Shown piece after piece: positions 21,631 through 26,874 of a DNA stretch of 64,000 bases. The notes below the pieces were generated by a model. That model did not search any database. It had not been told where the DNA came from and saw only the letters and a list, made by a program, of their open reading frames with translations. The DNA is from Halobaculum sp. MBLA0147 (GTDB lineage: Archaea > Halobacteriota > Halobacteria > Halobacteriales > Haloferacaceae). The stretch lies in contig NZ_JBGKAD010000001.1 in the NCBI RefSeq assembly GCF_041361345.1, positions 1,054,001 through 1,118,000 on the forward strand, given 5' to 3'. Each line of letters opens with the position of its first letter. Within the stretch, counting starts at the first letter, position 1. Both the position numbers and the translations under genes were made by a program.

Positions 21631-21940
21631 CGTGTGGCGTGTGTGGTGCGTCGTGGATCGTGTGGCGTGTGTGGTGCGTCGTGGATCGTGTGGCGTGTGT
21701 GGTGCGTCGTGGATCGTGTGTCGTGTGTGGTGCGTCGTGGATCGTGTGTCGTGTGTGGTGTGTCGTGGATCGTATGTCGTGTGTGGTGTGTCGTGGATCG
21801 TATGTCGTGTGTGGTGTGTCGCGGATCGTATGTCGTGTGTGGTGTGTCGCGGATCGTATGTCGTGTGTGGTGTGTCGTGGATCGTGTGTCGTGTGTGGTG
21901 TGTCGTGGATCGTGTGTCGTGTGTGGTGTGTCGTAGCGCG
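21631..21940. repeat. 28-bp minisatellite, about 11 copies
   Basis: GGATCG recurs every 28 bases from 21,655 to 21,907 (ten full units and a partial eleventh). The unit reads GTGTCGTGTGTGGTGTGTCG followed by TGGATC, with position-specific variants that change gradually along the array (GCGTCG to GTGTCG, ATCGTG to ATCGTA and back). Because 28 is not a multiple of three, both strands stay open in several frames, creating spurious long ORFs. The array fills the gap between uS2 and the isomerase gene. There are no spacers, so it is not CRISPR. Confidence 0.9.
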
Positions 21941-24109: not shown

Positions 24110-24130
24110 CGGTGGCGAGTCGCCACGGAC

Positions 24131-24266
24131 CGCGACGACACACCGAGGAGCCGCCGCGACGACACACCGAGGAGCCGCCGCGACGACACACCGAGGAGCC
24201 GCCGCGACGACACACCGAGGAGCCGCCGCGACGACACACCGAGGAGCCGCCGCGACGACACGACGG
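24131..24266. repeat. 24-bp tandem repeat, five copies plus a partial
   Basis: CGCGACGACACACCGAGGAG followed by CCGC repeats at 24,131, 24,155, 24,179, 24,203 and 24,227 with almost no variation, then decays. It begins 21 bases after the oxidoreductase stop. As 24 is a multiple of three, other frames encode an artificial repeat (RRHTEEPP), which is not treated as protein. Near-identity of the copies indicates recent expansion. Confidence 0.9.
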
Positions 24267-24315: not shown

Positions 24316-26874
24316 ATGAGTTTCGAGGGCGCAACCGAGCCGCTGTCCCCGGCGGCGGCGTACGCGCTGTACCGCGGGGCGGTGTCACTGTCGGACTCCG
24401 ACGACCGTGTCGACGCCTGTTGTACGGTGTTGTTGGGCGGTCGGCTCGGGCTCTCCCTCGACGAGCAGGCACACCTCCACGACGGGTGGGTCGACTGGGA
24501 CCGGGGGTTGCTCCGCGTCCCCGAGTCGGAACCGTGTGCGTGTGCGGCCTGCTGTCGGACCGCGCGGCGTCGCGCCGAGGGACGCGAGCAGTCGGCGCTG
24601 GCGACACTGTACGAGACGTGTTGGCAGTCACCACACGGTGGCCGGACCGTGTCGTTCGGGTGGTCGCGGCGACTGAGTGCGGCGGTCACGGCTCACGTCG
24701 ACCGTCGGCGCGAGGACGAGGCGGCTCCGGCGTGGTCCGCCGGGGGAGACGACCACTCGCGGCGCGTGTTGCTGGCCGCGGCGGCGGAGGCAGCGCCGGC
24801 ACTCGACCCCGACGGCGTCGGTCCAGACCGACTCCGTGCGACGGCCGCACGCGTCTTCGCGGCGGCCGGCGTGTCGGCCGAGGACCTGGCGGCGCTGCTG
24901 GGGGTCGAGCGGGCCGTCGCGGAGCGGGTGGTCCGGCGGTACGGCGACGGCGCGGCGACGCGACTCGCGGCGGCCGTCGAGGGCACGGACGCGGCGGCGA
25001 GCGTGTCCAGTGGTGGACTGTCTGCGAGCGAGTGGCCGCTGGTCGTCGATCCGACGCCGTTCGCGAACGAGCCGTTCGATCCGCGGACGGTCGACGCCGC
25101 CGCCCGCGCGACCCGAGCCGACGACGACGCGGCGCCGCGTCCGGTCTCGAACCCCCGACCGCGGGAGCCGGGCGCGGACAGCGACTACGACCGGGCGCGC
25201 CACGACGTGCCGTCGTACCTCGATCCTGGCGCGGAGGGAGTCAGGGTCGGTGTCGACGGGACCGCGACGCTGTCGACGCTACCCGGCTGGGTGGCGGACC
25301 GCGAACGGGAGCGGCGCGGGGACGCGACGGCCGCGGGCACCCCGCCGGGTGTCGGTCGGAGCGGGAGTCTGCCGGAGTCCGTCTCCGACGGCGGGGCGGT
25401 CGAACGACGACGGAACTCGGCCGGGTCGGCGGCGACCGAGACCGACGGATCGGCTCGACCGAACACCTCGGCCAGTACGGACGGATCGGCTCGACCGAAC
25501 ACTTCGGCCAGTACGGACGGGTCGACTCGACCGAACACCTCGGCCGGAGGCGACACACCCGCACAGACGAGAACGCCGACGAGTGGAGGTGGGCCGGCGC
25601 CCGGGGGAGACCGTACGAGCGGGGTGCACCCCGACCCGACCGGGCCCGAGACCTCGGGGACGGGGGCAGGGACGGCGGGTGCGGACACGGAGACGACGAG
25701 CACCGACGCGGACGAGGCGGGGAGATCCGGAGAGACGACGGGTGACGACGACGGGACCGACTCGGGCGACGAGGTGACCGTCGGCACAGGTGGTTCGGCG
25801 TCGCTCGACCCGCGAGAACGTGTGACGGGGCCGGTTCGAGCCGAGGAGTCGACGCGGTTCGTGGTCGACGGCGTCGACGGCGGCCAACCGACGGACGGGC
25901 ACGTCGTGTTGGGTGCCGAGGAACTGTTGTTCGTCGGTCGGGAGGGTGACGCGACGACGATCCCACTCTCGGCGGTGGTGGACGTAGCCGTCGACTACGT
26001 CCCCGACGGCTTCGAGGACGTGTTCGACGACACGGTCGGCGTCGCCTACGAGCGAGACGGCGACAGACGACTGGCCGTCGGGGAGTTCCCCGGACGGAAA
26101 CAGATCGACGCCGCGACGGAGGTGTTCGCCACACTCCTCGACGGGACGCGCGCAACCGTCACGCACCCGGCGAAGGAGGGTGGGCGCGTGACGACCGCAC
26201 TCCCACGCCCCTGCGAGGTCTCGGTCGAGGGGCGGCGGATCGCGTTCCACGAGATCCGTCCCGCCGAGGACGACGAGCCGGAGTTGCCCGAGGTGGACGC
26301 CGACGCCGACGTGGACCGCGAACTGCTCGCGAAACTCGGGACGGACGACGACGAGAGCGAGGAGGAGGATCTCTCGCCGGTCGAGCGCGTCGCCGGGCTC
26401 CCGGATCGGGAACTCACCGTCGCCGACGAGCCGTTGGCGACGGTCGAGCCGACGAGTCTGGTCCACGTCGAGCGCGGTCGCCAGACCGTCGGCGACGGGA
26501 TGCGCGACGCGGTGAAGGTGGCCCACTACGCCGACGACATCGACGAGACGCCGATCACGACGGAGATCAGCGCCGCGACGGAGCGGACCTACCGGCTGCT
26601 CAAGCGGCGTCTCACCCACGAGTACCGGCGGCGCGAGCGACGGATCGAGGCGCTGGAGCTCTCCGAGGAGGAGAAGGAGGCGCTCGTCGCGCTGTACACC
26701 GTCGGCGACGGCGTCGACCCGGGGATGTTGGTGGACGTGGACCCGGACGGCGTGGGCGACGTGTTGACGACACTTGAGGAGAAGGGACTGGTGAAGACGG
26801 CCGGCGACGACGCCGGGCTCTCGGCGCTCGGGGAGACGGCCGTCAACGAGAAACTCGACGACGTGAACGTCTGA
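24316..26874 (+). CDS. Fusion of a degenerate tyrosine-recombinase-like domain with a CheF-like domain
   Basis: An 852-residue protein in three parts. Residues 1-220 follow the catalytic domain of haloarchaeal XerC/D-type integrases: GLSLDEQAHLHDGWVDWDRG, a cysteine cluster (C74, C76, C79, C80), W103, R110TVSF, DRLRATAARVF and LAALLGV. The first catalytic Arg is Ser47, the HxxR histidine is Asp171 (Arg174 remains) and the tyrosine position is Val, so it should be catalytically dead. Residues 225-495 are a low-complexity linker with three repeats of DGSARPNTSAS. Residues 496-852 resemble archaeal CheF: TTIPLSAVVDVAVDYVP, VTHPAKEGGRVTTA, and a terminal winged helix (LSEEEKEALVALYTVGDG). CheF links chemotaxis proteins to the archaellum motor. 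No che or arl genes are nearby. Both domain calls are from memory of the families. Confidence 0.7.
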   Translation: MSFEGATEPLSPAAAYALYRGAVSLSDSDDRVDACCTVLLGGRLGLSLDEQAHLHDGWVDWDRGLLRVPESEPCACAACCRTARRRAEGREQSALATLYETCWQSPHGGRTVSFGWSRRLSAAVTAHVDRRREDEAAPAWSAGGDDHSRRVLLAAAAEAAPALDPDGVGPDRLRATAARVFAAAGVSAEDLAALLGVERAVAERVVRRYGDGAATRLAAAVEGTDAAASVSSGGLSASEWPLVVDPTPFANEPFDPRTVDAAARATRADDDAAPRPVSNPRPREPGADSDYDRARHDVPSYLDPGAEGVRVGVDGTATLSTLPGWVADRERERRGDATAAGTPPGVGRSGSLPESVSDGGAVERRRNSAGSAATETDGSARPNTSASTDGSARPNTSASTDGSTRPNTSAGGDTPAQTRTPTSGGGPAPGGDRTSGVHPDPTGPETSGTGAGTAGADTETTSTDADEAGRSGETTGDDDGTDSGDEVTVGTGGSASLDPRERVTGPVRAEESTRFVVDGVDGGQPTDGHVVLGAEELLFVGREGDATTIPLSAVVDVAVDYVPDGFEDVFDDTVGVAYERDGDRRLAVGEFPGRKQIDAATEVFATLLDGTRATVTHPAKEGGRVTTALPRPCEVSVEGRRIAFHEIRPAEDDEPELPEVDADADVDRELLAKLGTDDDESEEEDLSPVERVAGLPDRELTVADEPLATVEPTSLVHVERGRQTVGDGMRDAVKVAHYADDIDETPITTEISAATERTYRLLKRRLTHEYRRRERRIEALELSEEEKEALVALYTVGDGVDPGMLVDVDPDGVGDVLTTLEEKGLVKTAGDDAGLSALGETAVNEKLDDVNV

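Follow-up and report, generated by a model that had tools for sequence, protein, structure and literature searches.

A CheF-family protein of haloarchaea with an N-terminal domain derived from a tyrosine recombinase

We found that a gene of Halobaculum sp. MBLA0147 encodes a tyrosine-recombinase domain, stripped of all but one of its active-site residues, joined to a full-length CheF. CheF is the adaptor between chemotaxis signals and the archaeal swimming motor. The gene lies at 24316-26874 (+ strand) of the window, the 64,000-nucleotide stretch of DNA that we analyzed, where the preliminary description of this DNA had placed it. It is one uninterrupted open reading frame encoding 852 amino acids, and its start codon agrees with the starts of its orthologues in an alignment. 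This anatomy, a recombinase-derived N-terminal part followed by a full-length CheF, is near certain. We favor, at a probability of about one half, the view that the protein is an extra CheF2-type adaptor that once acquired a recombinase domain from a mobile element, and that this domain, no longer catalytic, has been retained as a docking module at the N terminus. It is the function of the fusion that we infer, as opposed to the folds, the loss of the active site, the single origin and the selection on the gene.

The N-terminal part has the fold and the relatives of the tyrosine recombinase superfamily. The catalytic domain spans residues 9-225 (24340-24990, + strand). Annotated haloarchaeal tyrosine recombinases matched this part in tblastn searches (E 6e-8). 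Across 170 genomes of the family, it retrieved the orthologues of the fusion and many integrases of 225-260 amino acids, with E values down to 1e-64. An AlphaFold model of the N-terminal part, built with 21 sequences, had a mean pLDDT of 78, and most blocks of the domain were above 90. All 50 of the Foldseek matches listed for the model were tyrosine recombinases, among them the MRSA integrase, the Tn1549 integrase, XerA, Cre and lambda Int; the top probability was 1.00, with a modest E value (6e-3). A proposal made from the sequence alone, that residues 1-220 form the catalytic domain of a haloarchaeal integrase, was thus borne out both by homology and by the predicted structure. A Pfam scan of the window protein did not call the recombinase domain, because the motif residues are gone, and phmmer searches of each half of the protein against PDB sequences gave nothing relevant. 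Phage_int_SAM also had no Pfam match in the window protein, in which the catalytic domain begins at about residue 9. That is, the protein lacks the core-binding (SAM-like) domain of classical XerA/SNJ2-type recombinases.

The active site has been lost from the fusions. The short haloarchaeal integrases of plasmids and haloviruses (225-260 amino acids; PF00589) have, like the fusions, a catalytic-domain-only fold, a C-x(n)-C-x2-C cluster and an LRAT box II, but they keep R-K-H-R-W-Y. Our alignment comprised 12 fusions, 10 standalone integrases and five related recombinases of the long form. The standalone integrases all retained R-K-H-R-W, and nine of the 10 retained the tyrosine. The long-form recombinases kept their active-site residues except for one histidine. 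In contrast, K-beta, H-II and W-III were gone from all 12 fusions, the tyrosine from nine, R-I from five and R-II from two. In the window protein, R-I is Ser47 (24454-24456), K-beta is Pro106 (24631-24633), H-II is Asp171, W-III is deleted and the nucleophilic tyrosine is Val205 (24928-24930). Of the R-K-H-R-(H/W)-Y set of an active tyrosine recombinase or integrase, only R-II is kept (Arg174, in box II with Asp171; 24826-24837). The preliminary description had listed the first catalytic arginine, the histidine and the tyrosine as replaced. This is correct for the window protein, but does not extend to the fusions as a group, 7 of 12 of which keep R-I; the losses of K-beta and of the box III tryptophan had not been named. 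Because of the residues lost, and given established active-site chemistry, the domain is probably catalytically dead and should be unable to act as an ordinary recombinase. The cysteine cluster (C-x-C-x2-C; C74, C76 and C79; 24535-24552) is invariant across the fusions and the tail-bearing and standalone recombinases. Of 15 columns that are basic in the standalone integrases, most are lost or mixed in the fusions, apart from R43, R63, R110, R119 and R174.

Between the two halves lies a region that is only partly linker. Residues 238-270 (25027-25125), which contain the motif PxPFxxEPFxP, are conserved between the fusions and a group of ~480-amino-acid recombinases, with P246, P248, E252, P253, P256 and D260 invariant. 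This extension is predicted to be structured (pLDDT about 90 or more). Residues 286-335 (25171-25320) are partly conserved, as judged from the alignment and AlphaFold. Residues 336-495 (25321-25800) are of low complexity (86% G/A/S/T/P/D/E) and presumably disordered, and contain a 36-bp tandem repeat of 2.8 copies (25444-25545) that encodes DGSARPNTSAST units. A disordered linker of 270 residues had been suggested; we place it at ~160 residues, about 336-495.

The C-terminal 357 residues (496-852; 25801-26871) are a CheF, as had been supposed from short motifs. The PF04283 (CheF-arch) profile scored 88 bits with the window protein (cut-off 25) and 44-108 bits with the orthologues. An AlphaFold model of this part, built with ten sequences, had a mean pLDDT of 82. 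It begins with a seven-stranded domain plus a helix; another beta domain and a long helix follow, and then come a helical or winged-helix-like end that includes a beta hairpin and, last, a helix at the C terminus. The best fold match in the PDB was the CheF crystal structure 7OVP (Foldseek, E 5.6e-11), and a profile of this part retrieved both 7OVP and 7OD9. The model thus predicts two PH-like domains followed by a helical bundle and a C-terminal domain, the architecture of crystallized CheF (PMC9126983). The first PH-like domain is at residues 509-608 (25840-26139), from comparison of predicted secondary structure with the published structure (PMC9126983), and the second, from AlphaFold, is at residues 612-753 (26149-26574). 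The second has an acidic insertion (about 26266-26412) that is absent from aligned relatives. The long helix and the C-terminal winged-helix-like domain (26581-26862) were assigned from AlphaFold, Foldseek, the profile search and the published structures, in which the winged-helix-like domain is the surface for dimerization and for binding CheY-P (PMC9126983).

Within the CheF family, the fusions are of the CheF2 type. In a tree of CheF sequences, the fusions grouped together (99/99), adjacent to CheF2-type paralogues, and CheF1 formed a separate clade (100/100) that excludes them. One divergent solo CheF from Halovenus fell inside the fusion clade, on a long branch. At the C terminus, the fusions carry the CheF2-like VNx in Halohasta, Halonotius, HArc-gm2 and the window's genus, where CheF1 has MN(D/E)Q; in Halovenus this end of the fusions has diverged. 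The C-terminal domain and end of the fusion match CheF2, and the CheF1-type residues are absent. The fusion thus shares with CheF2 (the OE2404R group; PF04283; 7OVP/7OD9) the two PH-like domains, the long helix, the winged-helix-like end, the terminal residues and the separation from CheF1. It differs in carrying a recombinase-derived N-terminal part of ~330 residues and a disordered linker, in lying outside the che region and in forming its own clade. In Halovenus carboxidivorans, which has seven CheF domains in its genome, a separate and divergent CheF-like gene encoding 320 amino acids lies directly upstream of the fusion (L104:6593-7555), and the end of its product weakly matches the N-terminal domain of HVO_A0261.

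The chimera arose once, as judged from the trees, and is conserved across several genera. In addition to the window's own genus, we found it in Halohasta salina, Halohasta litorea, Halonotius terrestris, Halovenus carboxidivorans, Halobacteria archaeon HArc-gm2 and metagenome-assembled genomes. In the recombinase tree these sequences form one clade (99/98), which nests with the long-form recombinases in a clade (100/100) that excludes the standalone integrases. The sequences also indicate purifying selection. In four pairs (Nei-Gojobori), the recombinase part had a dN/dS of 0.13-0.43 and the CheF part one of 0.10-0.31; the linker of the Halohasta pair had 0.64. One orthologue from the Halohasta group (G049; L037:10007-12138) has a frameshift that splits the gene into two open reading frames with a 4-bp overlap (GTGA); this is either an error in the sequence or a genuine split in which translation of the two frames is coupled. 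A reading of the fusion as an artifact (a chance similarity, an assembly error or a gene in decay) could point to this frameshifted copy, but it is refuted by the conservation of the fusion, which recurs in many independent assemblies and has a dN/dS well under 1, and we give it almost no credence.

Based on these comparisons, the source was most likely a mobile and apparently active lineage of long-form recombinases that was joined once to a CheF2-type gene. Catalysis was most likely lost after the fusion, which then reached at least two families by spread or by inheritance. The ~480-amino-acid recombinases of Halorubrum, Haloferax and Halobiforma group with the fusions (100/100) and share the PxPFxxEPFxP extension. 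They differ in keeping the active-site residues (with one exception, at H-II) and in ending in a hydrophobic segment instead of CheF. These proteins (L107:7968-9413, and also at L108, L109 and L110) are nearly identical in the three genera. At one locus the gene adjoins one for a UvrD/PD-(D/E)XK protein and putative ATPase-like and resolvase-like genes, the latter two judged from the start of their sequences. The ~480-amino-acid proteins may be anchored in the membrane and belong to a mobile element. A further long-form relative of 531 amino acids (L079, G450) has two C-terminal hydrophobic segments and arginine at H-II.

The fusion genes are found in ordinary chromosomal surroundings. All of the loci that we read were chromosomal and non-mobile, with no defense or provirus context seen around the fusions. 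Among plasmid records, none matched the fusion over its CheF part or over most of its length; there were integrase matches to the N-terminal part only. In the window, the gene adjoins oxidoreductase and sugar-isomerase-like genes, and in Halovenus it is near a proteasome subunit gene and genes resembling truD, pth2 and dcd. We looked for an operon or neighbor common across genera and found none; the neighbors are unrelated housekeeping or metabolic genes that differ by genus. No fusion locus read had che or arl neighbors, and the gene lies outside the chemotaxis region characteristic of CheF genes (Schlesner 2009). Together, the single origin in the trees, the catalytic losses, dN/dS below 1 and these chromosomal contexts support the notion, already present in the preliminary description, of a motility adaptor to which a domesticated recombinase has been joined.

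Ordinary, separate CheF genes were present in all 11 fusion carriers tested, as was the archaellum ArlD/E domain. The co-occurrence with ArlD/E is not significant, because ArlD/E is present anyway in 292 of the 392 genomes in this order (74%); with few independent fusion lineages, it is uninformative as evidence for a role in taxis.

Other features of the window and its genome were seen along the way. A perfect 24-bp tandem repeat of 5.5 copies (24130-24261) ends about 55 bp before the fusion start codon. A 28-bp tandem repeat of 10.9 copies (21631-21934; 97% matches, with an inner 7-bp period, CGTGTGT) lies between rpsB-like and sugar-isomerase-like genes. The same genome encodes a short integrase on an 82-kb contig (L004; G000:C6:34052-34612) in which a histidine aligns with the nucleophilic tyrosine, and which may be inactive too. 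This contig and G140:C51 are both 81,852 bp, but 20-kb pieces of each had no blastn match to the other, which gives no support to the idea of one shared plasmid.

How might the fusion work as an adaptor? The CheF part would dimerize and dock as CheF2 does, to CheY, CheC and CheD and to the ArlCDE switch complex, with its free C terminus left accessible. CheF2 of Halobacterium salinarum (OE2404R) binds CheY, CheD and CheC2, and its deletion has a weak phenotype (PMC2666748). The flexible linker would keep the recombinase fold at a distance from the CheF part, and that fold would recruit or anchor another partner, which is more probably a protein than specific DNA. The outcome would be modulated or localized motor switching, and the two ordinary CheF proteins would not be replaced. 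The domain order of the fusion is compatible with CheF function, because CheF tolerates an N-terminal addition: a GFP fusion to the N terminus of Haloferax CheF was functional and one to the C terminus was not (PMC9126983). Against the adaptor model stand the lack of a che/arl cluster at the loci read, unlike typical CheF genes, the diverged CheF C-terminal end in the Halovenus fusions and the near-neutral charge of the recombinase part in the window's own family; the co-occurrence with archaella does not help it either.

The main competing view, which we consider possible but doubtful, is that the inactive fold still recognizes DNA. The protein would then be a DNA-bound regulator or a chromosome tether, and the CheF part, through its winged-helix-like end, would couple CheY-P or the state of the motor to transcription, or taxis components would be tethered to the nucleoid. 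The recombinase fold is a DNA-binding fold, and R-II, several structural arginines and the cysteine cluster are retained. A precedent is fam30-04, archaeal tyrosine recombinases that combine Phage_integrase with BAT and HTH_10 (PMC8371274). The charge of the domain bears on both sides. In the window's family, the recombinase part is far less acidic (-0.4 to -5 per 100 amino acids) than the CheF part (-6 to -13), and this near-neutrality, with the recombinase ancestry, leaves room for nucleic-acid binding. In contrast, K-beta and most of the conserved basic positions have been lost, and in two lineages, Halovenus and the HArc-gm2 type, the recombinase part equals the remainder of the protein in acidity. 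Because most basic positions were lost and the domain was acidified in two lineages, we lean, from these sequences, toward a protein contact rather than a DNA tether. In addition, the surface of the CheF C-terminal domain serves CheY-P binding and dimerization in solved structures (PMC9126983). A related reading, in which the fold was recruited into the control of archaeal motility and would tether a CheF2-type adaptor to DNA or to cell-pole or nucleoid machinery and so link motor switching to the position or state of the chromosome, seems unlikely to us.

It is improbable that the CheF-like part has left taxis altogether to become a general dimeric scaffold unrelated to motility. The lack of che/arl context and the CheF2-type ends without CheF1 residues in the C-terminal domain would fit such a departure, as would the CheF paralogues of Haloarcula that lie outside che regions and whose role is unknown (PMC2666748). 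However, the PH-PH-CTD architecture is complete and, a weak point, all carriers tested have the archaellum. It is also quite improbable that the protein is a decoy that blocks the integration of haloviruses or plasmids by binding their integrase subunits or att sites, with CheF serving only as a dimerization scaffold. Dead subunits can poison recombinase tetramers, and plasmids, viral contigs and one mobile-looking island carry the integrases that are the nearest intact relatives. Nevertheless, a decoy would not need a whole CheF fold, which is kept and constrained; defense or provirus surroundings were not seen; and the recombinase part is only 25-40% identical to active integrases.

In our literature search, which covered a minority of subscription papers, we came across no account of a CheF joined to a recombinase. 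The closest precedent in print is fam30-04. Both join an archaeal tyrosine-recombinase domain to signaling domains, but the partner domains differ: BAT, GAF and HTH_10 had no Pfam match in the window protein, which falls outside fam30-04. What is new here is the domain partner that this CheF paralogue has gained. The fusion clearly illustrates how the fold of a mobile-element enzyme was domesticated into a signaling family that controls archaeal swimming, and it has a single origin and intact relatives for comparison. It offers a way into the second CheF paralogue, which is poorly understood, and into the uses of non-catalytic tyrosine-recombinase folds. Its role is testable, since the carriers include cultured strains, Halohasta litorea, Halonotius terrestris and Halovenus carboxidivorans.
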